Assembly (NCBI GenBank): GCA_963922205.1
Contig: CAWUHX010000070.1
Location: 186,001 to 250,000, forward strand
Length of the DNA stretch: 64,000 nucleotides
Direction of reading: 5' to 3'
Source of the DNA: Romanomermis culicivorax
Taxonomy: Eukaryota; Nematoda; Enoplea; Mermithida; Mermithidae
The translations under genes and the position numbers were made by a program. Shown here piece by piece: positions 23,492 to 54,900 of the stretch (the first letter of the stretch is position 1; every line of letters begins with the position of its first letter). The notes below the pieces were generated by a model. It ran no database searches. It was not told where the DNA came from and saw only the letters and a program-made list of their open reading frames with translations.

Positions 23492-23514
23492 TATCTGTAT
23501 GATAGAAAGATTCC

Positions 23515-31025: not shown

Positions 31026-31039
31026 CCCCTCCCCCTTGC
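31026..31039 (-). promoter_or_regulatory. element A polypurine tract
   Basis: The minus strand reads GCAAGGGGGAGGGG directly before the 3' LTR. The identical tract is present in B at 26,746-26,759. Confidence 0.8.
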
Positions 31040-33452: not shown

Positions 33453-33461
33453 TTGGGCAAC

Positions 33462-35324
33462 TTATGGAACCGGGGCGATCAACGTCGATGGAGGCAACAA
33501 AATTCGTTGTATCTCCTCTTTCAGCGTTTCAGGGTAGTCCTTCCAATGATGTTCTGGGAACAACATTCCGGGCGGTGGCGGCGGGAAATGATACCCTGCA
33601 TGCGCTGCGGCCAAGGCGTCCCATTGAGTAGCTGAAATAATCTGTTGCGAAAAACGTACGGGAGCACTATACCTGGCTGGGGCAATGGTGGCAATTATCG
33701 GAGGTCCCGGCAAAACTGCTGGTGTCGCCAAATATATTCGTGGGTCCACAGCGGGTGCTGTGGTCGGTATCGTAGCGGGTGGTTCTATGAGGGCGACGTC
33801 CATAGATGTGGATTGATCCACTGTGCTTTCTTCGGGTATATCGGTCAACATTTGTTCTGACGTCATCGTTTCGGAATCAATTGCGGCGGGTTGGATGGGA
33901 GTAGATTCGTTCATCGGAGCCGGGGCAATATTGGAAATTTCGTCGAACGTGAGTTTCAAGAAATCGGAGATCTGCGTAGCGGTTGCCATTATATCAGATA
34001 GTGCAGGGGGCATAGGAAGGGCCGACGCGTCTGTTGATGGCGGCAGCTTCGCTATGTTAAGGTCAAAAACTGGCGTATCGAATAGTTCGTCATCGGCAGG
34101 TTCAACTTCAACATCGATGGGGCGCTCGAGCAGTTCCTCCGCGGTGAGTGTTTGCACTGAAGTCGTAGTCGGCATGGGGTACGCATACACCGGCGCGGGG
34201 AACGAAAAACGGTTTTGAAAATCGATGAGCGCAATAAACGATGAGTAAAAATGGAAAGGGCTGTGCGGATTGGCCGTATAGTCGTGTTCGTCAATTTCCA
34301 TTTCTTTGACGGACGTTTCCATGTGGAAGTCTTCGTTGAACACAATGGGGCCTAACGCAAACCGATTGCAAATATAGGCGCCAGGATCGCTAGAGAAACT
34401 CAGTTCGCGTTCCGGAATGCGGTTCATCCAATTCGTAGGGAGCGAGTTGGGGTTGCCGTCGCTGCGATACCACATACACTCGTAGAACGCGGCGCGTATT
34501 TCTGGTTTCATCGATTGAGCATGGCGAAGAAGTACATCGTTGACGGAGGCATATTCTGCGGGGGAACACGGCGACGCGAGAAGCGCGGCCAACGGCATGA
34601 AAGAAGTTAGCTTTCGGAACCAGTCGCTGTCCACCTGTAAAAAATTAAGGATGGTGGAGGGGTGATAGCGATAATGAGTACCGTAATAGGTGCGCTCGTG
34701 CAGGGGTTGATCGGCGGCTACGCAATCTGTCCAGAGATCATCAACCTCGTGAGGAAGCGGCGGTAAATTGGGGTCGTTGTATGGCATTCGATCGCGGATG
34801 GCCAACTTGTATATCGGAGAAAGCAGAAAGTTGAGCAACTCGATGATCCGATCGGTGAGATTGCTCTTCATGGCCGACGTGACGGCTGCTTGAAGGCCTT
34901 TGGGATCGTCGAACACGGATTGTGGTTTGAGAGCCGGATCTTCGTCATCGGAAACGTCCAGTGATTTGTTCCATTCATCTTTTTGTTTCTTTTTCTTTTT
35001 CTTTGGCGCCTTCGGAACAGGAAGAAGTTTCAGGTGAGTTGTGCGCATCAAAGCTTTGACATCCCGGAAGCCATTGGTTACTGTTCCTAAACAAAAAGAC
35101 CGACCGTGGTCGGACGCTGTGCAGTCATACATGAAAAATTTGTAAGCCGAAAGAACTTCGTCCCGCATAATCGTGGGTAAGGCGACTTGCGATGTCGTCG
35201 GGTATATTCGGTTGGGGTAATCGGGGGGCAAGGCATCGGACAACGCGACATTGTGAAAAGTGGCGATAACGTATTCGGCGAGGTGGTCGATTTGGGTGGC
35301 ATCCAGTGAGTCGTGGGGAAACAA
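33462..35324 (-). CDS. element A 3' ORF, middle domain (unknown)
   Basis: 620-codon open frame continuing the exonuclease region in another frame; it overlaps the preceding ORF by 238 bases. Ordered part about residues 1-310: [49 protein letters not shown], a Lys-rich patch ([12 protein letters not shown]), [20 protein letters not shown], and [20 protein letters not shown]. The remainder is acidic and Pro/Thr-rich. B has matching segments. In B the exonuclease motif III and FPHD lie in one frame, so the split in A is probably a 1-base slip in the G run near 35,326-35,331. No known family recognised. Confidence 0.65.
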
Positions 35325-36505
35325 TGGGGGGCGTTGTAAACCTCGGGAATGAAGCCGTAGCGACCAAAAGCCAAAAACAATAGCAACGGATAATAAGCGT
35401 CGAGGGCCGCATAGTCAAGGACATCGGATTGCAGGAACGACGTCGTCGGGTTGTTGAAGAAACGCAGGGATGCTGGGAAGCGTAGCACGAGCTTTGAAAC
35501 GTCCAGCGCCCACATGGCGGAAACAGTTGCTTTTAGCGTGCATTTTTCGGGGAGGAAGCCAATTCGTCGCGCCAGCTTGTACAGTGACGGGGATATGTCG
35601 ATGTTTCGAATAACGCGGTACGCGTCAAAATGAATGGCTTTTACGACGGGATCTTTGTTTTTGTTTTGCTGATCGGTCCGGAATTGAGTACCCAGAAGAG
35701 CATATATTCCCGCCCAGTCGTCGGCTCCATCGAAGGAAACTACGATGGTGTGTTCGCCCTCGACTAGGGAGAATAGCGCGGTCCAGTCTTCCGGGGTAGC
35801 GGTGAACGTTTCGAAGACAAACATCGTGCCGTTCGGGAATGCAAGTTGAACATACCGGGGGTAGCTAGACGCCGTGGGGTCGGCTGGCATGGGCACGGTG
35901 AACTGGAAATGTTTTATATCAGGGGCCATGATCGATTCGGTGTCAAAGCCGACCAGCGTATAGCCACGGAAGTTTGGTGTGGGTTGGGCGGCCAAGGCCT
36001 GCCCCAAACTTCTGGGTGAAAGGAATATCGGTGGCGGCAAGACATTCGGGGGTCGCACGTACATGGATATGTACCACGATTCCAAATCCGCGACGCGGGT
36101 CAGGCGTTTGACGTTGTTTTCTAAACAAGAGCGAGCGCGATATTTATCATTGACACATGGGGCACCAAATCGAAAGAGCGAAATGGGGATTAAAGGATGA
36201 TTTAAACGTGAACCAGGAGGGAGGCGCGGTGTTGCTTTCGATTCGTTAGGAGGACACATGCTCTGAGGAGGCGTTGGCTTGGGCGGCGATGTCACCTTGA
36301 TGGGCGCATTTGGACAACTGGATCGGGCTACGATAGCGAGATAACGAGAGTTGTCGTATGCGGAAATCAAAGCAGCAGCCGGTTGTGGACTGAGGAGGCC
36401 ACAACTTGACGATGGCGGGGATCGCGGCAGCTGACCATGGATCTCTGGCGCAAATTTACAGAGTGGGGGAGTTACCCATGGGGTCCGAAGCAAAAGAGCA
36501 TGCAA
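35087..36505 (-). CDS. retrotransposon-borne DEDDy 3'-5' exonuclease-like protein
   Basis: 472 codons. Residues 1-120 are Pro/Ser-rich. The exonuclease-like domain spans about 175-380. Motif I is VGFDTES with Asp188 and Glu190; motif II is [10 protein letters not shown] with Asp263 before Trp264; motif III is [14 protein letters not shown] with Tyr365-x3-Asp369. The DxE, D and YxxxD set is the DEDDy signature of the DnaQ-like fold, and GADDW and YAALDAY closely resemble WRN and RNase D motifs. Known members trim DNA or RNA 3' ends using two metal ions. It lies downstream of integrase, after about 750 bases without an open frame, so a spliced or subgenomic message is likely. After residue 390 the frame is probably shifted. 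Confidence 0.75.
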
Positions 36506-37259
36506 GAATAAGCAGCAAAAGCATAAAAGTGAGAAAAATACCGTCGCAGGCGAAGCTAAGATTGTTTTGGTGGGGCTGCTGCTCGGCCCAACGTACGTAT
36601 CGTTCGTTGACGTTTATCGATTCACGATACGGCGGAGGCTCATCGGCCGTGGATGTTGATCCAGTTGACGGCGTGGTCATTTTGAAAAAAATAAATTTTA
36701 AGGAGCGGCTGGAAAATGCGACTGTTGCGGATGGAAGTGAAAAGTGGAAATGAAATAGTAAAAGAATAAGCCGCTGAAAGGTGAAGAAAGTGTAAAGTAA
36801 GAAAATGCAAACACTACCGTTACGAAAAGCAACACAAACACCACTATGTTAATGGGGACTAAAATCAACCTTTCCCAATTAGTCTTATGAGAGTGATAGC
36901 GGCCAGGGTCGGGCGGAAATAAACTGAATGGCCTCGTGCTGAACAGAACCTAACATTAAAGAAGAAACCCCCTCCTATCGTAATATGTGGGGACTGGGGC
37001 AAGATGTAAGGTGATGTTGTAAAGTCGGCCGAGTGGTTGTAAAAGACAGGTCGAAAGGAAGTGTTTCGAAATTGCCGTGCATCCTTGCTCGTCAACGAGG
37101 TCGCCATGATCTAAATTAAACAGACGTAAAGATTATTTACAACGCGGCGTGATGAGCGCCGTATCACAAAAGAAAAAATTTCAAAGCAAACTATTGCCGG
37201 CGAGAAGTGTGGGGCATACGTGGTCCACCTTCTTCGTTTTCGAACGCGTCCTTCGCCCG
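36506..37259. other. element A spacer between integrase and exonuclease ORF
   Basis: No continuous frame on the minus strand. Small frames at 36,456-36,680 and 36,865-37,107 show no domain. It could hold an internal promoter or splice acceptor for the 3' ORF. AT-richer than the rest of element A. Confidence 0.4.
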
Positions 37260-38200
37260 TCATGGGACAAATGGTTTTAGACGTGTTATGGAGACGGTCT
37301 GCGGGCGGCCGGGCGCATCGAGTGAGTCGATTGTGACAACGTTTTCAGCTGGGCGGGAGGCGTCCCTGATTAGAAAGGGTCCAATGAAGTTGGGTTGAAT
37401 TTTGTTGGCTTTGCGCGTATTGGTTAAAAGGACCAAGTCCTTGAGGAGGAAGTCACGTTTTCCGGCTTTGTGATCAAAGTATTCTTTGCTGGAGGCGGCT
37501 GCGGCATCGAGGTTTGCTTTAATTTTTTCGTGCATTTTGAGTTGTGCTTGCATAAGGATATGCTGATAGGCATCGTAATTCAACGGCAAAGTGAGTCGGC
37601 GGGTGCAGTCGTAGTCGAAGGTGATGCGCGGCTCATATCCTCGTAGTAAACTGAATGGTGAATGGCGTGTAGCTGTATGCGGTGTGGCGTTGTAGGCGAA
37701 CACGGCGTAGGGCAGGTAGCGCTCCCAGTTGTCTGGATCGTCGGCGGTATACTTTTTTAGCTGGGCGATCAATGTTTGATTGAAACGTTCGACCATTCCG
37801 TTGCACTGGGGGTGGTACGCCGTTTTTTTAACCTTCCGAACTTTGAGAAGCTCGCATATATCTTGCATAAGCTTTGACGTAAAGCATCCACCTTGATCGG
37901 AAAGGAGTACGAGTGGGCTACCGTGTGGAGGATGACTTTGTTGATAAAACATTCCACTATGGTTGAGGCTTTCACATCCGGTATCAGGTGCGCGGGTACG
38001 AATTTCGTAAAATAATCCTGAAAAACAATAACGTAGGGACGCTTCTCACCTACTGGCGAAATATTGACGATGTCGGTTGCCACAATTTCAAATGGGTGTT
38101 TGGGTTGGATTTGCAGCAGTGGCGGAGGCGGTGATGTGCGCGGCGTTGTTAGTTGGCAAATTTTGCAAGTTTTAATCCAATCTCGAACGTTTTCTTCCAT
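37260..38200 (-). pseudogene. element A integrase
   Basis: Two overlapping frames (37,769-38,200 and 37,260-37,952). The zinc-binding HHCC module spans a stop: the His pair is at the end of the previous ORF ([14 protein letters not shown]) and the Cys pair is CKIC. The catalytic core shows Asp43 (VATDIVN) in the first frame, then Asp19 (LSDQGGCF) and Glu55 ([11 protein letters not shown]) in the second, a perfect D,35,E spacing. The C-terminal part includes GPFLIRD and ends TRLKPFVP. A TGA at about 38,202 and a frameshift near 37,900 break the gene. Type and placement after RNase H fit Ty3/gypsy. Confidence 0.85.
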
Positions 38201-38206
38201 GCGGGG

Positions 38207-41200
38207 TCACCAAAAGTGAGCTTTAATTGCTGCTAGCGTGCGGTTTGTTCCTTGATGATTCAAAATTTTCGGGCCGTGGAATTGGTGAAGAGTTTGGTCG
38301 ACCATGGAGGCGGGTACGACTAATTGCTTGACCTCTTTAAGTTGACGATATAAAATTTGGTCTTCGAGGAAGAAAATTGGTGGGTGTTTGGCGGCGTTGT
38401 CTGTTCTGAGGGTGGCGATAATTTTTGTTATGGCTGGATCCGCGGCTTGAGCTTTTAAAACTTCCTCGTGGGCGGCGATCATAATGGCTTCGGCCGGGGG
38501 CGGTTCGTGGTTGATAGTTGTTGGTATTGAATTAGAGAGTGTGGGTTGACTGATGGTCTTTTTCGTCATTGCACGGGTGATGGCGTTGATTTCGGCGTCG
38601 ACTTCCGTGGGTGGTGAAACTGCTGCTGGGCGTATTTCGGGTACCGTTAAGTCAGTTTCCATAGTTGCACCAGCGGGGTGAAAATTCTCACGGAAAATCG
38701 TGGCGGTCAAATTTTCAGCGGTCTGGATTGGAGATTTGTCGCGGTCGTCCTTCCTGGATAGGAAATCGGCACAAGCGTTGTCTTTTCCTTTAATGTATTC
38801 AACTTTATAATCGTAATCCTGGAGGCTGATCGCGAAACGTTGGAGGAGTGAGTTTCGATGTTTTTCATCTTTGAGCCATTCGAGCAACTTGTGATCGGTG
38901 CGGACAATAACTTTTTGGCCGTACACATAGTGGTGGTACATCCGGAAGCCGTAGACAATGGCGAGGCATTCACGCTCAGTTGTACTGTAGCGGGTTTCGG
39001 CATCGGTGAGTACGCGGCTATTGTAGGCGATGACCCATTGATTGTTTCCGTTCTCTTGATACAAAATTGCTCCGATGGCGGTTGTGCTGGCGTCCGTTTG
39101 GATAAGGAATTGCGCTTTGCCATCGTAAACTGGGTAGCGGAGAAAGGGCGATGACGTAAGGGTGGTTTTGATACCCTCGAATGCGGCGTGGTGTTCGTCC
39201 GTGGCCATATATTGAGCGTCTTTACGTAGAAGTCCGTACAAAGGACTGGACAATGTTGCCAAATTCGGGATAAAGGGTTTGCACCATTGGACTAAGCCTA
39301 AAAAACTTTGCATACCTTTTTTGGTCTTCGGAAATTCATATTCGGCGATCGCTTTGACTTTCTCCGGATCGGCAGCGATTCCGCGGGCGCTAAGAAGATG
39401 TTCCAAAAATTTGACTTGCGGCGGCAGGAATTCGCATTTGTTTGGCCGAAGCGTGAGATTAGCTGCGCGGAGGGCGTCGAAAATGATTTGTAAATGTTCC
39501 AAATGTTCTTCAAACGAATTCGAGAAAATAATAATATCTTCGAGACAAATCTTCCAAATGTACGGGCGGAGAATTCTTTCCATTAGACGTTGAAATTCGG
39601 CAGGTGCGTTTTTCAGGCCGAATGGTAAAACTTTGAATCGAAACAGACCTTCTTGGCAGATGAAGGTTGTTTTATCGCGGGAGTCGGCGTCGAGGGGTAC
39701 CTGCCAGTACCTGGCTTTGAGGTCGAGCGTGGTGAAAAATTTCGCGTGTCCCATTGCGTCCAAATAATCGTCGATGCGCGGGATTGGGAATTTGTCGCTT
39801 GGCGTGACGTCGTTTATTCCACGGTAGTCGACAACGGGTCTCCAAGAGCCATCTTTCTTTTTTACCAAGAACAGCGGTGCGGCCCAGGGCGAGCAGGATG
39901 GTTCAATAAAATCGTTGTCGAGCATTTCTTGGATATGGCGACGTACAATCGGTCTTTGCTCCATTGCGGCGCGGTAATAATGGCGGAAAACGAGTTTTGC
40001 GGTGCCGGTGTCGATACTGACGGTCAACTCGCTGGTTATAGTTGGTTTGTCGCCGGGAAGGCTGAAGACATCGCGGTGTCGTCGAAGCATCTTGAGGGCT
40101 TTTGCTTTTTGCACGGCAGAAACGTAAGTTTTTTCGGTCATTTTGTTTAGGGCGTACTCCAGCTTTTGTTGTGCGGTGTGGCCAGAGAACGATTTATCAA
40201 GTGCGGCTGGCTCGTGATCGGTTAAGTCGCGGTCGGCGGCAGCAGTTGCTATCTGGCAGTTGGCGTGGGTTTTGGAATACTCTAGCGTGTGCTTTGCCAT
40301 CGCGATGAGCTGATTTGGTCTGAGTTTGATGCTGTTTGGCATGTTGTTAATGAAGAGGAGCGGACAATGACCGTTGGTGATGTTGACCACTGCGGTTTCG
40401 ACCGGAAGTTCTGCGGCTATGTTATCGGTGGCGAGAGGTTGTACAATCACGTCGGGAACGGTCGCCGATGTTGTGGGAAAAACGGTGCTTTTGACCCATT
40501 GTTGGCAATGTGGCAAAATCGAGACGGAAGCTTGGGTGACGAGAAAGATCGGTTCGGCGAGCTCGGTAACCTCCAGCCGCCGTGGGGGCGGTTGGTGTGG
40601 ACTAGGTTGAGCCTGCTGTATCGGTTGTTCAACTTCGATTTCTTCGGGTTGGCTAAAAATATCAGATTTATCGTCATAGAAACTTACTCGTTCGTCCTCT
40701 GGTATTTCTTCTAAGACATTGTCGTTGGCGGCATTTAGGAACAATTCCGTTCGAGGGGGGACCGAGGGGATTACCTTAAGCGGCAGTTTGACGTCTTGAA
40801 TTTCTATGTAATTGTCTTTAAAATTCAAAATGGCGTGGATATCTGGGTGCACGAGGAAATCGGTCCCGATGATACATTGGTCGTTTCCATCGTTGTCAAG
40901 GATTACGCATTTGATCATATGCTCTCCGAACGCCGATTCCATCGTAATGACTACCGGGCCATGAGCGTTGACAACGGCGCCATCGGCTACTTTGATTTTT
41001 CCGCAAATCGGGAGTTGGAGCGATTGTTTGTCGAAAGCGCGTTTGACTAAACCTGATGACAAAACGGAGCATTGGGCACCGGTATCGATGAGCGCGTGTG
41101 CCTTAACGGCTCCAATTTTGATTGGAATTTGAAAGGCTCTCCTGGAAGCGTACTTGCGGACAAAAGATTTGGAAGACGGCGTAAGGTTATCGATTTGACA

Positions 41201-41881
41201 AGCGGACGAGCGGATGTGGCATGGGTCTTGAAAAGCGCGGCCTGTTGCGTTCCAACAGACTATGCTGGGGCTAACGATGGGCGCGGCAGAAGCGATTTCT
41301 TTGGATGGGATAACCACATTGGCCGTGGACGTCGATTGATTGTTAGCGCCTGTTTCAATTGCGGATGTTGACGCGGTATTCAGTGCCGGAAGTGCGGGTA
41401 GGGTTAGTTGTAACTCCGAAGATTGAGAACTAGCGCGCGATGAGTCTGTCGGCGTCGTGACGTATGGGGTCGATACAGCATTGTAATGAATATGTTGTTC
41501 CCACGGTGCCAGAAATTGATGGTTCGGGTAAAGGGCGTAGGTATTCTGAACAAAATCATGTGGGCGCTGTATAGAATTACCTTCATAAAAATGGTTTCGC
41601 GCGCCGCGGGCGTAGTTTGTGCCTCGTTGGGGCGGTCCTCCGCGGCGGGGTCGCCAATCGCGCTGTCCACGGACGTCGTTTGAATTGTTTCGGAAATCAA
41701 CTTGCCGTGGGTGGGCGGCGTAATTTGGGCGGTTTGATTCAAGTCGGGTTGACTGTTTAGCGTTTTGCCGCTTGAGCCAGACGCAATCTTCGGTGTTGTG
41801 GGTGCGGGATTTGTGGGCATCGCACCAAAGACCTGTAGGTTGCGTCGTGCATTCGCGGTCTCGGCTGGCAGATCGGTCCAA
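38207..41881 (-). CDS. pol: element A Gag knuckle-protease-RT-RNase H polyprotein
   Basis: 1224 codons. A C20-x2-H23-x4-H28-x4-C33 zinc knuckle is followed by a disordered stretch. The retropepsin has [12 protein letters not shown] with catalytic Asp266. The RT spans about residues 640-840, with [26 protein letters not shown] (motif A Asp intact) and [16 protein letters not shown]. The usual YxDD box is CLED (Glu781, Asp782), so the first catalytic Asp is Glu and the Tyr is Cys; this copy is probably inactive. RNase H follows with [21 protein letters not shown] and RTDHKLL. The tail holds the start of the integrase zinc module. The order is typical of Ty3/gypsy. Confidence 0.92.
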
Positions 41882-41965
41882 GCAATTTGCATACGGCTCC
41901 CTGGTTTGAGATTGATGGCGCGGACTTTGTTGCCTGTTGTTGGGTATCGTTTCCTCAGGGCGTTG

Positions 41966-44034
41966 TCAGGATTTTCGATCTTCGTAGTCGCCGTCGTATG
42001 GCTGAATTAATTGTTCCAATAGTATTTCCGTGCGCGGTGGCTGCGGCGGCGGTGGTTCAATCGCTTGTGGTTGAAAGGAGACGAATTTAGTGGGTTGTGG
42101 TGTCGAATTTTGTGGCCTGCGGTCTGTAGATGGAGAGCGCTCGCGGTAGCGGTGTTGGGGGCGATCCATACTGCGGCGGCGTTCGAAACAGCGATCAAAT
42201 GGTTGCGGCGACTTCGGTGGTGATGCATCCTGATCGGCTTGATTTACAAGGATGGGTCGTTCCACGGTTCCGATTTCGGCTTTGGTTGCATTGAGGACAC
42301 TACGGGCTTTAGCTACGGCGTCGGCCAATTGTTGGACATTCCTGAAGCCTTTTGCCTGTTCGCCAATTGTTAGTTGATAGAACACAGGCATTTTGGTCAA
42401 AAAGGTGTCAATTACTTGTTTGTGCCGAAAAGTTTGATCTTCATGCTGATACAATAATTGTACATAAGTCATTACCTTACTCAGAAACGCAGCGGGTTCT
42501 TCTCCAATTTCTGGGGTGATTGACGCGAGTTCGCGTTATAGAGTCATCGGGTTGCAATCGGGAGCCAATTGGAACATGAGTAAGTGTTTGGCGTCTTCGT
42601 ACCACGTCATATCTTGGATCATGTCGCTCGGCGTATCGCGAGTGAGTCGGCGTAGTGCACTCATCTTTATGTGGTTGGAGGCGTCGTAGCCGAACTCATT
42701 TTCCAGGTGGATGAAGAAACATAACAGGCGTTTATTTGTTGCGGCGCCATCGATAATCAACGGTGCATGTTGTCGACGATCGTTTTGATGCGGCTATCTT
42801 CCTCACGATGAGACGTGCGGGGCATGTCATACCGAGGATGCGGATGTTCATAATAATCCTCTGGTGGGTAATCTGAGAAACCGAACTGGTTTGCCGCGGG
42901 CGGTGGGCGTCTTTGAAGCGCGGAACGGTGTAAATCTTCGTCGGCACGCGTAGTGCGGGCGAATTCGTTATTGTACAGGGTATCCGTCGACGGTGCTTTG
43001 GGTTTAACTTGATTCGGTAGCCTGCCAAAGACTGGAGCCGGTTCAGTTTCATGGAGAGTTTCGTTTGGGATATAAATATCTCTTGTTTCCTCGCCATGAA
43101 ACCGTGAGCGCACCGGCAGCGGTCTTGGTGTAGGCGGATTACGCGCATTAGTTGTGGCTGCGGTTGTGGAGATCAATTGTTGCATTTGCTCGGCGAGTGC
43201 TGCGAAACGCGGGTTAGTGGCCTTGGTTTGTTCCTGGATTTCGCGTTGAACGCGTAATTGCTGGGGTTGGAATTGGTCAGAGACGGCGCCGATAATTTGA
43301 TCGATCATTTGTACCTTAGGAACATTGTTGGTTATGCGCGCGGCGGCGGTGTTGAGTTGGTCCAGCGCGTCGCGTGCTTCAATTCGAAAATTTTGAACTT
43401 CATTGGTGTTTGCGATGGCTAGGCTGCTGCGGTGATTGTTTACTGGAGCACGGGTGGCGGTTGGGGCTTGCGGTGGTTCGATATTGACAAAGGATTCGGA
43501 GGAATCGGTTCTGGCGACAGCTTGGTCATTGTTACTTCGGGTCGGGGCGCTTGGTGGCGGCATTTGCGATGCGGGCGGCGCGTTAAGGCAATTTTCGGCG
43601 GCGGTAAGGAGGTTTTGATTTAGCGACCGCAGGGGTTGAGAATTGATCGTCGCCGCAGTTGTGGGAATGAGCGGTACTTGCAGTTGTGCTGTCCCGTCTG
43701 ACGCGGGAGTACTGAAATTAGACAAGGGCCGGTTATGGGGCGGGAGGCTTACCATGGGTACCGCTGTCAATTGCGTAATATTTGACGGTCGCGGCAACAG
43801 CATTTGGTCAAAACTTAGGGTGCAGCATGCGGCTGTGGCGGCGTTCGGAGAACTGGATCCCGACCGAAAGCGGGTGAAGTCCGGCGGTGTGTGGCTTACT
43901 GTTGGCATCTTTTTTCGCAGGGTATAATAATCTCTTTTGTACCCTTTGGCGCAGCTACGGCGGGGTCGAATTTTGGACTCTTTGAGCTTTTTCGGATGCA
44001 ACGCAACGGCGGGGAGTGGCAACGTACAATCCAA
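41966..44034 (-). pseudogene. gag: element A gag
   Basis: Three pieces: 42,757-44,034 (425 codons, Pro/Asn/Thr-rich with a helical stretch around [15 protein letters not shown]), 42,536-42,760 and 41,966-42,472. The last two form a retrotransposon capsid-like region ([54 protein letters not shown]). A stop at about 42,537 and frame changes separate them. The zinc knuckle is in the next ORF. B has the same segments (55,951-56,166), more decayed. Confidence 0.8.
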
Positions 44035-44045
44035 GCGGTCACCAG

Positions 44046-44628
44046 TGTTGTATCTTGGTTTGTTGGGGCGGAGATGATGTGGTGTGAGCAGGATTGGGAT
44101 TCCGAGGTTACATCCTTAATGTACGTGCTTCCCACACCCACGTTTACCCGATAAACTAATTACTGGTACTTAAACCCCAACACTAATTATCCCAACAATT
44201 AAAGAAAGAACTCCTTTCTTTAATTGTCTCCCTGGTTGCGCAAGATTGAAAGGCGAGGGATTTTCTACCTTTTAATGTTACGCAATAATGTACAAAACTT
44301 ACGTGAACAAAATGGAGACGGGTGAGACGAAAAATAAAAACACTAAATCAACTCCCACGCACGGGCGAAAAAGAGATAGACGAAAAAGGCGTGGTGGGAG
44401 GCGGCGAGTATGTACTAGCGGTGGCCTACGGGGCACACAACTAGTAAGAAAAACATAAAAATTATAACACTAATAATAGCAACTGAGAGAGACCAGCGCA
44501 CGCGTACTGACGTGCGCTACAGTAAGACGGCTACTGGTGGTCCGCGTTGCTCTCTCCACTAGCCACCTGCGGGCCTCTAACGCGCTTTGACAAAACGATA
44601 AAAAATCGGCGGAAAACACACTACAACA
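44046..44628 (-). repeat. element A 5' LTR
   Basis: 583 bp. In element orientation it begins TGTTGTAGTGTG and ends GATACAACA, followed by CTGGTGACCGCTTGG, a possible primer binding site (from TGG). B has CTGGTGATCCATTTAGG in the same place. Confidence 0.9.
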
Positions 44629-45807: not shown

Positions 45808-46600
45808 GGGGGCTGAGTTGTAAAAAGCTCCCCGGCCCATGTTAAAGATAGACTTTTTACTTAGAAAAAAATCACAACCTACCCAACACACAAAACATAG
45901 CCAGCCTTCCTTGGACTACTATGACCTCATTTTTCTGCCTGGAAAGAAGCATGACATCACACCTGGGGTAGTAAGAAAAAATTCTCCAAACTTGGCCCAC
46001 CCACATATCTGTCAAAACTTGAAATAATGTAACATATATGGTACTTTTCAGAATTACCCCAATGAGATCTATCGATTGGTACCCAACATGACCCATTTGG
46101 GACAAAAGCCTAAATTTAGTGTGGGCTCTACCATTTATGTTATCTGTTATTATGCATTGCTGCAGCTGTACCCATTGGGGGGAGGGAAGTTCGCCTAGCT
46201 AATAAAGCTGAATTTTTGGCTTCAAGCTTTACATAGAAAAGAATTCATAGAAAAAAAATAGAAAAGTCATGTAATACACTCGTATTGATTCTGAAAATTT
46301 CAATTAGTGTGAGCTCTACCATTTGTTTCATTTGTTATTATGCATTGCTGCCATTGCCCGCCCCCGCCGCCACTGCTGCCACACCCGTTGGGGGAAGGAA
46401 GTTCGCCTAGCTAATAAAGCTTAAGCTGCCGCTTCAAGTTTATATAGCTAGCCTAAATATAATAAACAATCAATACGAGAAATATGTCATGTGATATATC
46501 AACAGAAATTGTGTACTCACTCGCATTGAACACAGGATCAGTCCCTGCACCAGCACAGGGAGGCTGGTGTGGCGCCAGTACTTTCATAGAAAGTACCCAC
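45808..46600 (+). repeat. P2 left terminal inverted repeat
   Basis: Pairs with 53,089-53,609 through several blocks: CCCATGTTAAAGATAG, TGACATCA near the pyrimidine-rich joint, TGGGTGGGCC-type, ATGACCCATTTGGGAC and the palindrome GTACTTTCATAGAAAGTAC at 46,578-46,596. A block of about 190 bp starting TTAGTGTGRGCTCTACC is tandemly duplicated here (about 46,115 and 46,303). Confidence 0.8.
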
Positions 46601-46893
46601 AATACATTTCCTTCACCTTTTTCTAGTATAGTTGTGATCCCAAGTACAGTTGTGATCCCAAGTATAGTTGTGATCCCGAAAATCCCAAGTTCTTCATTAG
46701 CCCTTTCATTCTTTTAATTGGTCAAAAATCAGCACCAAATTCTCTATATCTTCCAGCTTGAACATATTTACACACAGCATAATGCACAGAATGGATAGGA
46801 ATTTTCCCACATAAGTTGCAAAGCTCCATTTTAGAGAATGAATGTTTCAGCTATTGACTTGATATATTTATACCAGTAGGTATTACTTGCTCA
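46601..46893. other. spacer between P2 left TIR and TBP gene
   Basis: Contains three copies of an 18 bp unit (AGTTGTGATCCCAAGTA) at about 46,628-46,680. No gene recognised. Confidence 0.6.
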
Positions 46894-47412
46894 TCAACTT
46901 TGGAAATTGACAAGTAACTCTTTGAAGTCCTTTTGCAGTTCACCATAAGTCTTGGCACCTGTAATAATTATTTTACCATTGTGGAAAATTAATGCACATA
47001 AACCATACTTGTTAATTCTGTATTCCAGGGCAGAAAATAATTCGGGAGAATAATCACATTGACCCCTGTGAGTGTTATAGAATTCTTTAACATTTATACC
47101 ATGATCCAATGTGTATGACCCAATAATGTTACACATTTTAAATTTCCTGGGTCTTGGCTGATAACCAAGTTTGACCAGTATTTCTGCTGCATAATCTATA
47201 CTTTTTATTGCCTGTTGAGTTGCCTTAATGCCCACACATATGAGCTTCCCATTTTCGTACAATACTAGACAACATTTTGGATCATGGAGGTGCCAAATCA
47301 GTGACCTGAAATTTCCCATAGTCAGTTTAGAATCATCCGATTTTTTAACAAGTGAGTCCAAATTGAGTCGACAACCAAGTTCAGCTGTGACAGTAATATT
47401 TTGTACTTGCAT
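46894..47412 (-). CDS. Polinton-encoded TATA-box-binding protein homologue
   Basis: 172 codons, uninterrupted, the size of a bare TBP core (two direct repeats, no N-terminal extension). Repeat 1 starts VQNITVTAELGCRLNLDSL and includes LVLYENGKLICVG; repeat 2 starts FKMCNIIGSYTLDHGINV and includes PELFSALEYRI and ALIFHNGKIIITGAK. The four DNA-intercalating positions (yeast Phe99, 116, 190, 207) align without gaps to Phe35, Tyr52, Phe126 and Phe143. One of the two yeast TFIIB-contact Glu residues is kept (Glu124); the other is Ser122. The start codon overlaps the minor capsid 3' end by 32 bases in another frame. It probably directs transcription of the element's own genes. TBP homologues are known in some large DNA viruses; I know of none described in Polintons. 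Confidence 0.9.
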   Translation of the reverse strand: MQVQNITVTAELGCRLNLDSLVKKSDDSKLTMGNFRSLIWHLHDPKCCLVLYENGKLICVGIKATQQAIKSIDYAAEILVKLGYQPRPRKFKMCNIIGSYTLDHGINVKEFYNTHRGQCDYSPELFSALEYRINKYGLCALIFHNGKIIITGAKTYGELQKDFKELLVNFQS

Positions 47413-48129
47413 TTTCAGAATATGCTTGGCTTTCTAAAGTGTAACCAATTGTTTTACCAGTGACAAAGTTTATATGTTTGTCTTGTTCTGATCTAATTAA
47501 AATTTTGATGCAATCAATATCTTTAACATGTACAGGCATGTAGTGAGGAGCTATATATATCTTTTCTATATTGTCACCAAAAGCTCCCTTTATATTAATG
47601 ATACGGAGGAGAGGGGCTAAAATATCACCAGCAATCTGTTGTTCAATGATGTTACAGTAAACATACATGGTTTCAAGACCAGCCTTCATATCGGCAGGGT
47701 GTGCAGTAGCAATTTTCAATTTTTCAGATGTAGTTGTTTCTATAGTCTGTTTTTTATAAAATGCTTCTAAATAGAAAAGTGACACAAATCATTACAGTCA
47801 TCAAAATCGTTTACATAGAGCTTTTACTGTAAAATTTTTCACTCGAAAAATTGTTAAAGGTGAGCTCAGTATGCTCAGGAATTTCCGGACGTATATGATA
47901 TATTGTTCGTCAGCAAATCATGAAAATGTGAAATACTACTTGCTTTCCACTCATATTATTTAGAAGTATTTCAAGAAAAACAGACTGTAGTTGTGATTTC
48001 TCAAAGCCTTTCCCATTTACCTTGCAAAAGCAATCTATGAGGCAACCTGATACTAAAGTTTGAAGCAGAGTTACTCGGATCCCTCTGAGCATTGCTTGGT
48101 AATGTTACATAAAACTGTGAAAAATCCAT
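47381..48129 (-). pseudogene. P2 minor capsid protein (jelly-roll, F54H12.2-like)
   Basis: The N-terminal start at 48,129 reads MDFSQFYVTLPSNAQ, the conserved opening of Polinton minor capsid proteins, then stops near 47,995. The C-terminal piece (47,381-47,785) holds MYVYCNIIEQQIAGDILAPL, KIYIAPHYMPVHVKD and a short end. The total is far shorter than the family, so the middle is deleted or frameshifted. The family forms the vertex or minor shell of Polinton virions. Its 3' end overlaps the TBP start. Confidence 0.7.
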
Positions 48130-48199
48130 TTTTCAATATGTCATTAAGGTGGAAACTAACTTTTATATTCTGTTGAGCTGGTCAAATAAAAATTCATCA

Positions 48200-48608
48200 T
48201 CATATATGGGAGTGAGCCTTGTTCTGAACTAGCAGCAATATCTCTCATACTTATACATCTAGCCATCCACACAAGAAAGTATATACATAACTGACCACAT
48301 GTAGCAGTCAAGAACTGTCGTTCACATTTGGTATTGCATTTGTAAGAAATAGCTATAGTCTTGATGTAATTCCCAAGCTGTGGAGGTGGTTCAGGGCCCT
48401 AGCTGTCAAAATAACAACATGAATGTTTTTTATCAACAAACAGAGCTATCCAGTGTGAACCAGGTTCATCCTGCTTGTCTAGATTTACAACCAATGCTGC
48501 AGGTACAGTGTCAAGAGGTGGTAAACAGTCTACAGGGAATAACCCATTGAAGATTTGTCTGAGAGCTTGATCTCTATTGATCAAGATGTAGATTTTAAAG
48601 GTATTCAT
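48200..48608 (-). pseudogene. P2 adenain-like cysteine protease
   Basis: The ATG at 48,608 overlaps the capsid stop as ATGA. The frame shows FPVDCLPPLD, NLDKQDEPGSHWIALFVDK with the catalytic His52, and CCYFDS. A TAG at about 48,403 follows. Past it the same frame continues with TATCGQLCIYFL, containing the expected catalytic Cys. Adenain-type (C5) proteases mature the capsids of adenoviruses and Polintons. Apart from the stop the gene looks well preserved. Confidence 0.8.
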
Positions 48609-49875
48609 GCAGTATAGTCATTAAAGACGTATCTATTTTTATGGATCATAATCACATTGTCAAATTCTGCATAAACAATAATTTCTATACCTGGATCAGG
48701 TATCCTATCGGCAAATGTCAATTCTACACTTGTGGAACCATCTCTAATCAAGTCCCAAAGTCCACTACCATCTTCATCAGGTGTAAAATCGAATGTGAAG
48801 CAGCATTGTCCATTTTCAAAATTGAGTCTTCTAATGCCATTCCCCTTGTTATCTTTAGCCATGTCTAAAGTTTCAAAGAGCTGATCATATGCTTGAATAT
48901 ATTTGTTGTTAGCAAAATCAAGTCTTAATAGAGTCACTGGAAAAGTTTGACCACCAGAGACAACCTTGACTTCACTTATACTGTAACATTTAAAATTAAA
49001 TGGAGGTTTTTTGATTTCTCCAGGATATGCATCTGCATTGACACATGCTATAATCATCCTATGGGGCAACTGACCTGTGAATAGAGTATTTAGAGGGGTA
49101 GATTCACCATTTGAACTCATCTGATTAGGTACTTGACTGGTGTTTTTAACATTGCTTTTTCTAGAGCCAATCCAACACTGTCGAGAACTTCATTTTTCCT
49201 GATGAAGAGTTTCATCAGGGAAACTGCCAATTTTGCATTTTCTGCATCACCAGCTGGGCACTGTAATACAAATGGATTACTATTGTGGATCAATTCCAGT
49301 TTGAGCTCAGTATTGCTGAGTAAATATCAATCTTGCATTAGAAGATCAATATGAAGAGGAGCTGTTATTTCAACTGTTTGACCATTTTCAAAGCGCTTTA
49401 CCCTGTCTTTAAATCCCCGACAATCAGAAGTATCTATTTTAGGACCAGCTTCCATAGTATATAAAGAAGACAGTAAGTGACTATTTTTAGCATCAAAACC
49501 AAAATTTAAATCAGTTTCGAAGAATGCTCTGTAGGCATACTCATCCCCACTACCATGAATGAGATGACCATTCAGGAAGAGCTTTACTTGTCTGAAAAAT
49601 GCTTTACCAATCAGATTGACAGGTGAAATTACTGGTGCAGCTCCACCAGCAGGAACTTTGTAAGTAATTTTCAAGGTCATGTACAGATACTTTTGCTAAG
49701 CTGAATTATGTGAGGATCTTGAGGTATAAGAAATCCATATGGACCACCATTTGTGATAGGATTTATCGAGTTAACTTCATCCCAGTAGCCTTGCTTAATT
49801 ACTACTTGTGTGGGAGGTACAGTGAAAAAGTCCTATTCAGACTTTGTACTAATACTAGAAATTGTATCAATTAGA
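48605..49875 (-). pseudogene. P2 major capsid protein (double jelly-roll)
   Basis: Pieces in order: about 49,690-49,870 (FFTVPPTQVVIKQGYWDEVN, NGGPYGFLIP), 49,327-49,680 (LIGKAFFRQVKLFLNGHLIH, YRAFFETDLNFG) and 48,605-49,120 (GQLPHRMIIACVNADAYPG, AYDQLFETLD). These are typical segments of the Polinton double jelly-roll capsid (NPINF-type start, xxNG..I, P.R...). Stops and frame changes near 49,684, 49,326 and 49,125-49,140 break it. The gene ends in an ATGA overlap with the protease. Confidence 0.75.
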
Positions 49876-50262
49876 GCTATGTTTCCTTCTCTTTTCCTTT
49901 GAGAATATATCATTTTTCTCAACTTTTACACTTTTTAGTCTAGTCCCCAAGCCTCTTCCAGTCTGCAAGGCGTCTCCTGCACTGTGGGCCAACTTGAAGA
50001 GTGCTGCTCGGCCATGTTTTTCTTGAGACTCTTTAATAGATCGACCTTCTCCTAAATCTCCAGCCATATAAGCACTTGTGGATAGCGCTTGCTCACCAAT
50101 ATGACCAGCAGCTGACTTAATAACAGGAATGGTCATTCTGAATAGTGATCTAAAGAAGCTTGCTAGACCTCCTCCATGCTGATAGGGACTGCCCTTTGAA
50201 GCCTTTGAAACCATGGCCCATTTGTTCAGCTTGTTCAGTGTAGTACTGAAGCCAAGTTGCAT
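49867..50262 (-). CDS. P2 hydrophobic virion-type protein
   Basis: 131 codons. Gly-rich start and a hydrophobic helix (GGGLASFFRSLFRMTIPVIK), then SAAGHIGEQALSTSAYMAGD and a basic tail (KEKRRKHSSN). This pattern is shared by a small protein of many invertebrate Polintons, compared by others to adenovirus core or membrane-lytic proteins. It lies directly upstream of the capsid gene. Role inferred from position. Confidence 0.6.
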   Translation of the reverse strand: MQLGFSTTLNKLNKWAMVSKASKGSPYQHGGGLASFFRSLFRMTIPVIKSAAGHIGEQALSTSAYMAGDLGEGRSIKESQEKHGRAALFKLAHSAGDALQTGRGLGTRLKSVKVEKNDIFSKEKRRKHSSN

Positions 50263-50476
50263 AATCTTCAGGATTAAAGTATCACTTCACCTTTATAAAT
50301 TTACAAAATGCTCTAAACTACAACTTTTATACTTTTCCAAATTTTAACCATCTAGACTTTGGTGTAATGCTTTTGGGTACCTTAATCTTTTTATTATCTA
50401 CAGGGCCACTCAGTGAAGCCAATGTTTCATCACTTTTACCTCCAACATTTAACTTGGACTTATTTACAAAAGGATA

Positions 50477-51056
50477 TCAAGGCATATTCTCCTTTAAGAG
50501 GTTCTTTACAAACAATTCTGACCCTATTGCTTGCTGACGCCTGGGACCAACTCTCACCACATCAGAAATCAAATCAACAATGTTGGTTCCACTTATTTTG
50601 ATGCCCTTCAGAATCATTTCTCCTTTATCTGACCACTCCATGTGAGGATTATCTTTAGCATAATCATATAGCATTTAAGCCTGACTATTCCACCTTTTTG
50701 ATACAATTTTCATGGTTTTTTCATGCAGAACATCTTTTCTCGGGATAACAATGACAGCACTCTCAGCAGTGTCTGACTTTTTCTTGCTTCGGTGTTATTT
50801 CTTCCAGATCAGGAATGGGGTGTTCTGCAACAGGTTCACTAATTGTCAACTCATAAGGCCTGGTTTGATCCTGTATAGCCTGCCTATATCTGCGCAACAC
50901 TTGATTGTATAAGATTATCTTCCTGTCTGAGGGCAAGGACTTGTTAGTTAGAATATCCTTCATTTCTTTATCCAGAGCAGTCACTACATTAGCTGCTATG
51001 TCTTCCCTATGACCAATGTCAAGTGGTACAAAAATCATTTTATTTGCATGCATCAA
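50477..51056 (-). pseudogene. P2 conserved Polinton protein, two pieces
   Basis: The first piece (50,763-51,056) reads KMIFVPLDIGHREDIAANVV, LDKEMKDILTNK and LYNQVLRRYRQA. The second (50,477-50,674) reads EWSDKGEMILKGIKISGTNI and VDLISDVVRVGPRRQ. Together they follow a protein of about 200-250 residues common in invertebrate Polintons, with stops in between at about 50,675-50,765. Function unknown; possibly structural. Confidence 0.55.
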
Positions 51057-51283
51057 TTTTTTATAATTGCATTTGCTAGTAATTGTCCAGCTATTCTTAA
51101 AATTGGTGCCAATAATACAGGCAAAAATCCACCTTTTTGTTCTAGAATTTCTCGTCTTTTGCTGAGACTTGGTTTCTCATCTGCTAATACTCTTAAATGT
51201 CCCTTGTGGGAACTTAATTTATTCAAGGTAGTTCTGTCAACTTTTATATTGCCTTCCAGAAAGTTGAGTATACATTCACCCAA
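51053..51283 (-). CDS. P2 small protein with C-terminal hydrophobic helix
   Basis: 76 codons: ECILNFLEGNIKVDRTTLNK, then a basic stretch and GGFLPVLLAPILRIAGQLLA. The family is frequent in invertebrate Polintons next to the previous gene; function unknown. Overlaps that gene's start by four bases. Confidence 0.55.
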   Translation of the reverse strand: MGECILNFLEGNIKVDRTTLNKLSSHKGHLRVLADEKPSLSKRREILEQKGGFLPVLLAPILRIAGQLLANAIIKN

Positions 51284-51428
51284 ACACAGTATCAGTTCTC
51301 AATCAGCAGTGCTAATAATAGCTTTATGTTGCTTGGGTTTAGCCTAAGCTAGCACCTTGATGTAATCAATATTATGTCTAAGAGGATCATAAGGCATTTT
51401 GACTTTACAACTGAAGAATATACAACTT
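51284..51428. other. short P2 spacer
   Basis: No conserved frame recognised. Confidence 0.4.
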
Positions 51429-52000
51429 TTATGCTTTCGGCACATATACCATGGAAAATTTTGAGAAAATATCAGCTCTGAGTCTAAGTTTATCCAGAGT
51501 TGTTTGAGAAAGACAAATAATTATATAACTGTACGGGTTAAATGAGGCATCTTCAAAAGACTCCAGAAAGTACTTTATTTCATCAGGAAACAACTGTCTT
51601 GCCAAAGTTTTTACTTGGAGTCTATCTGGAGAATTCTTCATCAAAATGAGGTACTCTGCATTTATTCTAGATGTTCTTAGACGCTCGAAGAAAGCATTTT
51701 GCACAATGCATATCACAGACACATACATGTGATGACATCCATGAGTAAAAAGAATGTCCAGATGCTTTTTTTGCCATTTCCTGCATCAGATCATCTAGTA
51801 TAACAAGCTAAGGTACAGGACTCAGCTCTCTAATCAACTTCATGTCAGGTAATCCCTGATAGAAGTTGATCCTGCCAGACAAGTCATTGTAGACTGGCTG
51901 CTTCTCACTAAAGAACCAGTGAATAAATATATGAGGTTATTCATTGTGATAAGACCACCCCATTTGAGGGCTTTTGGGACAACGTCACCAAGGACAGTCA
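51429..52000 (-). pseudogene. P2 FtsK/A32-type DNA packaging ATPase
   Basis: Recognisable order: NFYQGLPDM; LVILDDLMQEM (Walker B, near 51,795-51,830); then the open frame 51,429-51,728 with VQNAFFERLRTSRINAEYLI, RLQVKTLARQLFPDEIKYFL and SFEDASFNPYSYIIICL. Stops and frame changes lie near 51,730-51,950. A P-loop could not be recognised upstream. The protein pumps DNA into capsids in related viruses and Polintons. Confidence 0.7.
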
Positions 52001-52189
52001 AGAAGGGGATGCCGATCCTGAATTGGTGATGATTGCAGATACATTCAAACTGCTTGGTAACACTGGATATAGAAAAACCTCGACCAACAAGGAAAGCCAT
52101 GTGGATGTCTTCTACATAGACCTACTTAAAAAAAATAAAGTGCATAACAGAAAACTGTTATGAAGTCCATTTGAGAAAAAAAGAAATTG

Positions 52190-52760
52190 TTTTAGACCTC
52201 CCCTGTAGTTGGCCTCTCTGTATACAATTAAGCCAAAGTCCAAATGTTACAGTTCTTCTATGATGTGCTCCAAAAATATTTTGACCCCTCAGATTATCAG
52301 TGTATCGAAACAGACACTGATGGCATCTACCTCGCAATATCTGCTCCAAATGTTTTGGATATTGTAAAGCCTGAACTAAAGGATGAATTTTTGAATAGAA
52401 TTTATCCAAAATGGTTTGTGATAAAACTAGAGCAAAAAAGAATCCCAGGTCTATTAAAAGTAGAGTGGCAAGGAACAGTCATGTGCTCCCTATCCACCAA
52501 AACGTATATTGGGGTTGGAAAAAAAGAGAAAAAGATTAGCTGCAAAGGGCTAATGAAAAAAAACAAACAACTTAATCTTTGAGAAATATGCTACTGTTCT
52601 TGAGACTATGGAACCCTGGAATGGTGGAAGCATTGGATTTAGAATGCAAGGAGATAGCAAAATTTTGACATACATCCAACAGAAGCAAGGCCTACCCTTC
52701 CTGTATATAAAAAGAACAGTCCTAGATGATGGCATAACAACTGTACCATTGGACTCGTGA
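52190..52760 (+). pseudogene. P2 protein-primed DNA polymerase B, 3' fragment
   Basis: The plus strand reads MLQFFYDVLQKYFDPSDYQC followed by IETDTDGIYLAISAP, the palm motif C (DTD) of Polinton-type family B polymerases. It then reads PGLLKVEWQGTVMCSLSTKT and YIGVGKKEKKISCKG. After a frame change near 52,575 come FRMQGDSKILTYIQQKQGL and KRTVLDDGITTVPLDS, the family C-terminus. An in-frame TAA lies upstream near 52,230. Exonuclease, TPR and motif A regions are absent. It converges with the minus-strand genes. Confidence 0.8.
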
Positions 52761-53088
52761 TGTTTCTTTCATTTATCTATATTTTCAACTATGGTTATAT
52801 TAGTATGTCTACAGTGTAGACATTCTTTCTTTAACACAGAGAAGAGAATGTTTCAGCAGTACAAACAAAAATGAATTGCCACTTCATTTTTTTTGAATTT
52901 GTGAATTTTTAGCAAGGCACTAGATGCATGGTGAGGAGCCACTGATGGGCTAGGGTCATGCAACTCTGTGCTGGGTTTCAGGTGCATGGTGAGGAGCCAA
53001 TGAGGGTCTGACATCAGGCAAATATGAGTAGTGCAAGACTTCTGGTGATTCTGACTCAAATACTGCATGACTATTCTCCAATATGTAG
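52761..53088. other. P2 region between PolB and right TIR
   Basis: Contains two copies of GGTGAGGAGCCA (about 52,930 and 52,990). No gene recognised. Confidence 0.5.
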
Positions 53089-53609
53089 GTACTTTCTATG
53101 AAAGTACTGGCGCCACATGCGCACTAGCCTCCCCCCCCCCCCCCCCTTGGTGCTGGGACTGATCCTGTAATCAGTGCAAATGAGTACACAATTTCTGGTG
53201 GTGGCAGAGGGCAGCAGCGGCCATGCATAATAACAAATCACATAAATGGTGGAGCTTGCACTAAATTTAGGCTTATGTCCTAAATGGGTCATGTTGGTAG
53301 AGCTCGAGCTAAATTTAGGCTTTTGTCCTAAATGGGTCATAATAGATCTCATTGAGCTGATTCCGAAAAGCACTATATATGTTACATTATTTCGAGTTTT
53401 AACAGAGATGTGGGTGGGCCAAGTTTCATGAACTTTTTCTTTCTACCCCAGGTATGATGTCATGCTTCTTTCCAGCCGAAAAAATGACGTCCTAGTAATC
53501 GGAGGAAGGCCAGCTATGTTTTGTGTGTCGGGGAGGTTGTGATTTTTTTTCCAAGTCCAACGCCTATCTTTAACATGGGCCCAGGAGCTTTTTATGATCA
53601 GGCCCCCCT
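53089..53609 (-). repeat. P2 right terminal inverted repeat
   Basis: Complement of the left repeat, including palindrome GTACTTTCTATGAAAGTAC (53,089-53,107) and AACATGGGCCCAGGAGC near the end. A 50 bp block (AAATTTAGGCTT..GTCCTAAATGGGTCAT) is tandemly doubled at about 53,255-53,345. A C run of 17 lies at 53,130. Confidence 0.8.
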
Positions 53610-54900
53610 ATCAAGCCTTTCTTGAATTTGAAACTTAACTACAGGACGTTGTTCAATGGGAGCACGATAGTAGTGTCTAGTGATGGGTTGCGCATCACCA
53701 GTATCGATGTTCACCATGAGTTCGAGAGTAAAGGTAGGAGGATCACCAGGTAAGCTGAAAACATCCCAATACCTTTTGAGTATCTTAATGGCTTCAGCCT
53801 TCTGAGTGGGCGAGACAGAGGTATTTTGAGTCATTTTTCGAAGGGCTAAGTGAAGTTTTTGAGAATCAGAAGTGTTAGGTAAAGAATGATCTAATGCAGG
53901 AGGTTGATGATCAGCTGGATCACACTGGGATGCAGCTACAGCAACTCGAGAAAGGATATCTTGTGAGCCAGTATGCGACCTTCCCAAAGAGTGCTTTCCA
54001 TCAGCAACTACTTGGTTATCGCTAAGCTCAAGACAGTTTTGAGAATTGTTGACAAACAGAAGTGGACAAATTCCATTACAGATATTAATCACCAAAGTTT
54101 CTATGGGAAATTTTTCACGGTTTAAAGTGTTAGGTGCAGGTTGAACTGTTAAATCAGGTATGGATGCATCTGTTTGTGGAAAAATATGACCACAAATCCA
54201 ATGTTGAGAATAAGGTTGAATCTTAACAGGAGCAGCAGCAACAATAAAGGTAGGTTCAGCAAGTTCACCAACAACTAGATTGTTGGGATCAACAACTGTG
54301 GAAGTGTCTGTTTGAATAGGTTGATCAGGGGATTCAGCTTCAATCTCTTCAACTTGCTCATCACTTTCAGAGGATTGATAGTCTGAAGAATGTGCATGAA
54401 TTGGAATTTCTTCTAGAATAAGTCCTTCAAGACTGACAAGAGTAGAAATTATTTCAGGTGAGTTAGGCAAATGTCTAGGAATTGTGGTAAGAGATTGTTG
54501 TTTATTGGCTATCTCAAAGTATCCTTACTTAAAGTTCAGAATGGCTTCGACATCAGGATGAGTCAGAAAGTCAGCACCAATGACGCACTGGTCGCCAGTT
54601 TCATCATGGAGAATGATGCATTTCAGAAGATGTTGACTGAAATCAGATTCAATTGTAAATAGAACCCAACTGTGGGTCTTTACCACTGCTCCATCTCTGA
54701 CAGGTATGAGGCCACAGACAGGTAGAGGGGTATCAATCTTCTCAAAAGCTCTTCTAACAAGACCAGATGATAACAGAGAACACTGAGCGCCTGTATCGAT
54801 GAGAGCATTTGCAGTTATGCCTCCAATTTTGATAGGAATGAGGAAGGCATTAGTAGGTAGATAGTTTTTTACATAATTATCAGAAACAGGAGTTCAGTTA
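53610..54900 (-). pseudogene. element B protease and start of RT
   Basis: Homologous to residues about 240-660 of the element A polyprotein. [10 protein letters not shown] lies near 54,784-54,830 in one frame. The 53,598-54,470 frame has LVVGELAEPTFIVAAAPVKI, GICPLLFVNNSQN, VFSLPGDPPTF and VNIDTGDAQPITRHYYRAPI, ending QIQERLD at the P2 boundary. RT catalytic motifs, RNase H and integrase are absent from this copy. Confidence 0.8.

Follow-up and report, generated by a model that had tools for sequence, protein, structure and literature searches.

A TATA-binding protein gene in Polintons of the nematode Romanomermis culicivorax and an extended TATA box shared by several of their virion genes

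The gene set of Polintons, also called Mavericks, is familiar, in part as general background. Nematode examples such as polinton 1 of C. briggsae (PMC11071308) resemble the elements considered here in their B-family DNA polymerase, rve-chromodomain integrase, A32-type ATPase, protease and capsid genes and in their inverted repeats. Here we analyse a 64,000-nucleotide stretch of the Romanomermis culicivorax genome (contig CAWUHX010000070.1, positions 186,001–250,000; hereafter the window), in which a decayed Polinton copy, P2, contains an intact gene for a TATA-binding protein (TBP). The TBP gene and a TATA box common to several element genes set these Polintons apart from the described ones: neither feature, and no report of a Polinton-encoded TBP, was met in the literature searched, which did not include the main paper on nematode Polintons. 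Virus-encoded TBPs are already known from large DNA viruses.

One of the two nearest functional parallels lies in the beta- and gamma-herpesviruses, where BcRF1 of Epstein-Barr virus (EBV) and UL87 of cytomegalovirus (CMV) are viral TBP-type factors that act on a special late-gene (TATT) box and use the host polymerase (PMC4893493). Those factors are about 10% identical to TBP and act with five other viral proteins, whereas the Polinton protein is recognisable by the Pfam profile PF00352 and has no known partners; our best reading is that it would work like the herpesvirus TATT-binding protein, a likeness in manner of working only. The other is the Chrysochromulina parva virus CpV-BQ1, for which the authors propose that the virus redirects the host's RNA polymerase II by means of its own TBP and TFIIB (PMC12085832). 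A TBP is likewise described in the Yellowstone Lake phycodnaviruses (PMC4602308); both are large and also encode TFIIB, for which the element open reading frames (ORFs) scanned here gave no match. TBP is further reported in 59% of mirusvirus genomes (PMC10132985), which unlike the present elements span hundreds of kilobases and use another capsid fold, and in giant viruses such as megavirus (PMC11464507), where viral RNA polymerase subunits and TFIIB accompany it. The poxvirus factors VETF-l and VITF-3 provide TBP-type promoter recognition (PMC12917281) with minimal sequence conservation and a viral RNA polymerase, and the sporadic TBP genes in virus-derived integrated elements of the alga Cymbomonas (PMC10675990) have, unlike those of the Polintons here, a putative mirusvirus origin.

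It is confirmed that the first ORF of Table 1 encodes a two-repeat TBP core inside a Polinton copy. A Pfam search matched its product to PF00352 (E = 2.2e-35) over two stretches corresponding to the two tandem TBP repeats, human TBP matched it at an E value of about 4e-27 over residues 2–166, and the gene contains no intron; the product is 25–33% identical to the 27 other proteins in its alignment. A sequence-only reading of the window had proposed an intact 172-codon TBP core, which the continuously open frame and the strong profile match bear out, and had placed the gene on the virion-gene strand within the inverted repeats of P2, as mapping of the arms and the capsid genes upheld. Its four wedge aromatics (positions 99, 116, 190 and 207 of yeast TBP, whose residue numbers and roles we assume throughout) were recovered as F, Y, F and F in our alignment. 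The gene had also been called the best preserved in P2, and among the proteins of a related copy (L009) TBP is indeed the only one to match end to end, in one frame and without a stop. The 32-base overlap that had been noted with a minor capsid ORF (47381–47785) is present in the window but absent from the relatives read in lineages A and B (defined below), where 2 nucleotides (nt) separate the stop codon of this penton-like gene from the TBP start; it exists because the penton-like gene has decayed. A TGA common to many TBP copies proved, in the seven loci read (L002–L008), to be the normal stop, which there sits two codons before the stop of the window copy.

The same reading had pointed to other Polintons of the species, substitution ratios across copies and a tree with the host TBP as informative comparisons. 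Searched against its own genome, the window TBP gave 151 matches at 34–100% identity (the best 150 of 271 candidates), the lineage C TBP being 34% identical. About 144 listed TBP places were compared, leaving out the second fragments of six split genes; penton-like genes were listed at 148 places (the best 146 of 1145 candidates), or 145 once fragments were joined, and pairing was assessed between these 145 and 144 of the 150 TBP rows plus 12 rows of a further search. A listed TBP lies at most 3 kb downstream on the same strand at 127 of the 145 listed penton-like genes, with a gap of 0–9 nt at 83 of these 127, and 18 have no TBP among the matches listed. Conversely, a listed penton-like gene precedes 121 of the 144 listed TBP rows; the remaining 23 include the window copy, L025, L026 and L028, where tblastn finds one. 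Nei-Gojobori ratios of nonsynonymous to synonymous change (dN/dS) for TBP were 0.10–0.22 between the window and ten A copies, with a median of 0.19 across 45 A pairs; A–B pairs gave 0.10 and 0.12 and B–B pairs 0.12 and 0.20 (the third pair saturated in each set), and L026 against L027, a comparison involving a decaying copy, gave 0.85. The Polinton TBP is under purifying selection, and it is a standing gene of this Polinton family, situated after the penton-like gene in most listed elements.

Gene content was followed at 20 genomic places with about 8.5 kb upstream, comprising lineages A (n=10, L009–L018), B (n=6, L019–L024) and C (n=4, L025–L028). The better copies (e.g. L023, L022 and L027) carry on one strand, in order, integrase (rve plus chromodomain), a small gene, A32-type ATPase, g141, g219, g144, capsid, protease, penton-like gene and TBP. 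The integrase passes the Pfam cut-off in the relatives L023, L027 and L009, as does the ATPase of L023 (30.2 bits, cut-off 22.8); the L023 protease falls under it (PF00770, E = 0.0013, 18.9 bits, cut-off 21.3). For the capsid, the double jelly-roll profile PF21738 scores just under cut-off in the public relatives P0122 (77% identical) and P0171 (52%) and has no match in the public relative P0161; the L023 capsid is without any Pfam match, and a capsid profile matched none of the solved structures searched. The penton-like protein, so named by eye, matches no Pfam family over cut-off. In A and B the DNA polymerase gene starts beyond the integrase on the opposite strand, L019 being rearranged such that the polymerase adjoins the capsid genes; the 1409-residue ORF of L019 shows polymerase motifs by eye and has no match to PF03175 (protein-primed B-family DNA polymerase), a profile that is over cut-off in two further types, D and E. 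At the C loci L025 and L027, and also at the edges in L043 and L047, TBP is followed downstream by an ORF that probably represents the N-terminal portion of a different polymerase.

In type D (L031–L034) TBP is followed by a 121-residue ORF, a 235-residue ORF cut by the end of the locus and, running convergently, a fragmented DNA polymerase whose pieces match PF03175 (L048); the TBP of L034 is broken. The 235-residue ORF is related to the penton-like protein (hhalign probability 92.7, E = 4.4e-07 for one comparison, 24% identity). In type E (L040, L049) TBP and a DNA polymerase matching PF03175 are arranged back to back, and the start of this polymerase resembles the C ORF downstream of TBP (E = 5e-15). 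The polymerase differs in type and place between A/B and C while the integrase-to-TBP block is retained, as if polymerases had been exchanged. The small ORF beside TBP in D (L031:2013-2375) is weakly similar to the small gene after the integrase in B (L023:3121-3459; E = 4e-05 for one comparison) and is a possible conserved partner.

In A and B, TATAAAAGTT stands upstream of the start codons of the ATPase, g141, g144, capsid and penton-like genes, the g144 site of L009 reading CATAAAAGTT. Across these 16 loci it occurs 85 times on the gene strand and not once on the other (10-kb stretches, gene/other strand: A 52/0 in 10 loci, B 33/0 in 6, C 0/0 in 4), with few copies in L010, L016 and L019 (1, 2 and 1). 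The shorter TATAAAAG is found 64/8 times in A, 41/6 in B and 24/2 in C, compared with a mean of 0.20–0.87 per strand and a maximum of 4 after shuffling (30 dinucleotide shuffles per locus, 20 loci). In L023 the distance from box to first ATG is 46 nt for the ATPase gene, 43 for g141, 61 for g144 and 47 for the capsid; for the penton-like gene it is 11 nt, with 50 nt to the second ATG. In lineage A, 17 nt separate the capsid box from the first ATG. More distant boxes precede g219 by 192–264 nt in four of the five A/B loci inspected and the integrase by 247–288 nt in all five. The ten letters of TATAAAAGTT fall in varied reading frames or outside ORFs of at least 90 residues, and the constraint is therefore on the DNA, for which protein constraint offers no explanation. 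Within the window, TATAAAAGTT is confined to its three sites in P2 (Table 1).

At the divergent DNA polymerase gene, TATAAAAG stands without the GTT extension. A single TATAAAAG lies on the opposite strand in 13 A/B loci, followed by CA, GA or GC and never by TT, and in the six readable loci (L009, L012, L013, L015, L022 and L023) it is 74–110 nt upstream of the polymerase start; the match in L019 falls inside the polymerase gene itself, and none is present in L010 or L017. When each of four lineages is represented by a single locus, TATAAAAG is followed by TT at 26 of 31 gene-strand sites and at none of the 4 opposite-strand sites (Fisher p = 0.0024). The ten boxes of L027 (lineage C) lack GTT and are mostly preceded by AAAAG, and both the TBP and the box flanks of lineage C differ from those of A/B. 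Pieces of D and E contain TATAAA-type sites, including TATAAATA and, in L031, TATAAAAAGTT.

The host TBP is a separate gene on contig C95 (L039) with three core exons. A tree of 31 rows (LG+C20+F+G4; the F_L042 row partial, host TBP lacking its first core exon) placed all Polinton TBPs, together with the public protein P0002, on one side of a branch with support of 98/96. Trees in which A, B and C were held with the host TBP were rejected (approximately unbiased test, p-AU 0.005), and holding them with the host and five rows taken for animal TBP/TRF, two of them nameless, gave p-AU 0.03; the tree program warned of long branches meeting. Judged from these sequences the Polinton TBP is not a recent host copy, and we read nothing more from the tree. 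Retrocopying of the host gene, which would have left a near-copy at this single locus, is ruled out because the host TBP is separate and intron-bearing and the sister grouping is rejected, and the element gene occupies more than 100 listed places. Among public proteins the window TBP alone as query found no match; alignment A1 as query found 1696 proteins, with P0002 among the 120 listed. P0002 is a metagenomic protein of 172 residues from a 1443-base contig; its identity is 50% to the E TBP, 49% to the D TBP and 33–40% to four ordinary TBPs. Viral contigs scanned with TBP and with the capsid yielded no relative.

Two PF00352 repeats are also present in C (L028), D, E and P0002. The wedge reads F/Y/F/F in the A and B rows and F/F/F/F in C_L027, C_L028, D and E, with Tyr at position 190 in C_L026 and F_L042 only partly represented. 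Asn69, Asn159 and Thr215 are retained in the A–E rows. Glu186, which we take to be a TFIIB-contact position in ordinary TBP, is Ser in A, Thr in B and Val in C and remains Glu in D, E and the host, so that the TFIIB contact is perhaps altered. Both peculiarities stressed by the sequence-only reading, Tyr52 and a Ser in place of a TFIIB-contact Glu, hold in A; Tyr52, however, is limited to A and B rows and the Ser to A. Its suggestion that the protein might be tuned to element promoters gained support from the TATAAAAGTT box common to several virion-strand genes.

We consider it probable that the Polinton family not only carries TBP as a standing gene but uses it as its own promoter-recognition factor. 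The element TBP would be translated from the penton transcript, bind TATAAAAGTT together with host TFIIB, perhaps by an altered contact, and recruit host RNA polymerase II to the virion genes, while host TBP would open the DNA polymerase gene through its box without GTT; an early/late order as in beta- and gamma-herpesviruses would result. More tentatively, each lineage's TBP may have co-evolved with its own extended box (TATAAAAGTT in A/B, AAAAG-TATAAAAG in C), with host TBP serving the replication gene and element TBP the virion genes; a transposon of Polinton size would thereby possess an early/late switch like that of a virus, based on a genuine TBP. We put this fuller scheme at somewhat below even chances.

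Several observations weigh against this proposal. TATAAAAG is also a canonical box for ordinary TBP, and for that reason the motif by itself does not prove use by the element TBP. Two groups, A/B and C, underlie the match between TBP and box; D and E have TBP and no TATAAAAGTT in the stretches examined. Taken one lineage at a time, the GTT contrast falls short of significance (p = 0.22–0.33), and the loci are related copies. Protease, g219 and TBP itself have no near box in A and B; they start at, or 2 nt past, the preceding gene's stop, and the two facts together suggest shared transcripts. Val71 and Thr124, assumed to be DNA-contact positions, are changed to Thr and Val respectively in the A, B and C rows. 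Near-identical TBP pairs gave dN/dS values of 0.27 and 0.41, and one pair had no synonymous change, although with 2–5 changes each these are uninformative. Finally, a single-sequence model of the TBP structure was poor (predicted local distance difference test score, pLDDT, of 47).

The element TBP might instead be a competitor that sequesters host TFIIB, TFIIA or TATA boxes to the detriment of host transcription, the element boxes being read by host TBP. The presumed TFIIB-contact position is altered in A, B and C, and of seven genes compared between L009 (A) and L027 (C) it is TBP that shows the largest dN (0.66, versus 0.45 for penton-like, 0.40 for g219, 0.39 for protease, 0.27 for ATPase, 0.26 for g144 and 0.16 for capsid), as expected for a host-facing protein; a lineage-specific box extension would be unexpected if host TBP alone read the boxes, and we regard this alternative as unlikely. 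Rather improbable, in our view, is that host TBP reads every element box while the element's own protein acts elsewhere, for instance on RNA polymerase III genes, in DNA replication or in packaging: the canonical TATAAAAG and the adjacency of TBP to a capsid-type gene would fit, but the wedge residues are retained and the GTT class is confined to the virion strand.

We give very little credence to the idea that the host has co-opted the TBP gene of the dead P2 copy. TBP is the sole whole gene of P2, and its dN/dS to L009 is 0.17 versus 0.29–0.49 for six other P2 genes; yet 172 codons may survive by chance, many other copies are open, and the better copies L013 and L015 also give high protease ratios to L009 (0.78 and 0.30, from few changes), compared with 0.11–0.17 for TBP and 0.00–0.25 for the others. 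Least credible of all is a chance-acquired host TBP retrocopy or passenger gene, which would account for the missing intron but not for about 144 listed places, purifying selection, the fixed order with the penton-like gene and the rejected sister grouping (p-AU 0.005).

P2 itself is a 7.8-kb unit between inverted-repeat arms and retains three TATAAAAGTT boxes (Table 1). Eight of the nine L009 proteins compared match it, the exception being the integrase, which tblastn with the proteins of relatives did not find in P2. Because the integrase is missing and only the C-terminal part of the polymerase is present, P2 is an internally deleted Polinton, a dead element. None of its ORFs other than TBP matches Pfam over cut-off, and the ends scanned show no 6–8 bp target-site duplication, the copy being old and its exact ends unsure. 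No Rfam family reached cut-off in the window.

Table 1. Features of the Polinton copy P2, in window coordinates, and TATA-box forms.
Feature	Position	Strand	State or detail	Basis
Polinton-encoded TBP	46894..47412	minus	172 aa, intact, stop codon included	ORF, Pfam, alignment, tblastn comparison
Inverted-repeat arm, TBP side	45808..46601	none	several aligned blocks (I1, I2, I5, I8, I9, I15, I19)	
Inverted-repeat arm, other side	53084..53607	none		inverted-repeat alignment
Penton-like (minor capsid) gene g277	47447..48132	minus	decayed, two fragments	tblastn with relatives
Protease gene remnant, adenain-like	48166..48617	minus	frameshift and one stop	tblastn with relatives
Major capsid gene g448	48608..49925	minus	three pieces, three stops	tblastn with relatives
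g144 (pVI-like by eye)	49870..50293	minus	frameshifted	tblastn with relatives
g219	50330..51071	minus	broken	tblastn with relatives
g141 (pX-like by eye)	51059..51397	minus	two stops	tblastn with relatives
A32-type ATPase, C-terminal part	51432..51924	minus	cut by internal deletion	tblastn, Pfam of relative
DNA polymerase, C-terminal part	51879..52754	plus	adjoins ATPase remnant	tblastn, query L019:1538-5764:-
TATAAAAGTT box before penton-like gene	48158..48167	minus	5' T at 48167	
TATAAAAGTT box before g144	50322..50331	minus	5' T at 50331	
TATAAAAGTT box inside g141	51239..51248	minus	5' T at 51248; the site 192-264 nt before g219 in relatives	
Altered box TGTAAAAGTT before capsid gene	49921..49930	minus		
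Other box forms			polymerase-gene type TATAAAAGCA; AAAAGTATAAAAG	

Other mobile elements share the window. A second, more distant Polinton remnant lies at 21164–23554 on the minus strand, with integrase, ATPase and g141 fragments 30–51% identical to lineages B and C. A long terminal repeat (LTR) retrotransposon occupies 30443–44628, with direct repeats 98% identical and matches to reverse transcriptase, RNase H, protease and integrase; its G+C content is about 50% compared with 36–43% around it. An outer pair of inverted repeats, 85–93% complementary, spans 25971–58412 and encloses both the LTR element and P2, together with an aspartic-protease ORF (54528–54893) and ORFs without a Pfam match over cut-off. 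Degenerate GGCTTA/GCTTAG arrays at 16812–16922 and 61336–61468 resemble the nematode telomere repeat, TTAGGC.

If these elements do bring their own TBP and a matching box, Polintons would be linked to virus-specific preinitiation complexes, their lineages would provide naturally diverged pairs of TBP and promoter inside a single genome, and the question of when such an element behaves as a virus would be open to experiment.
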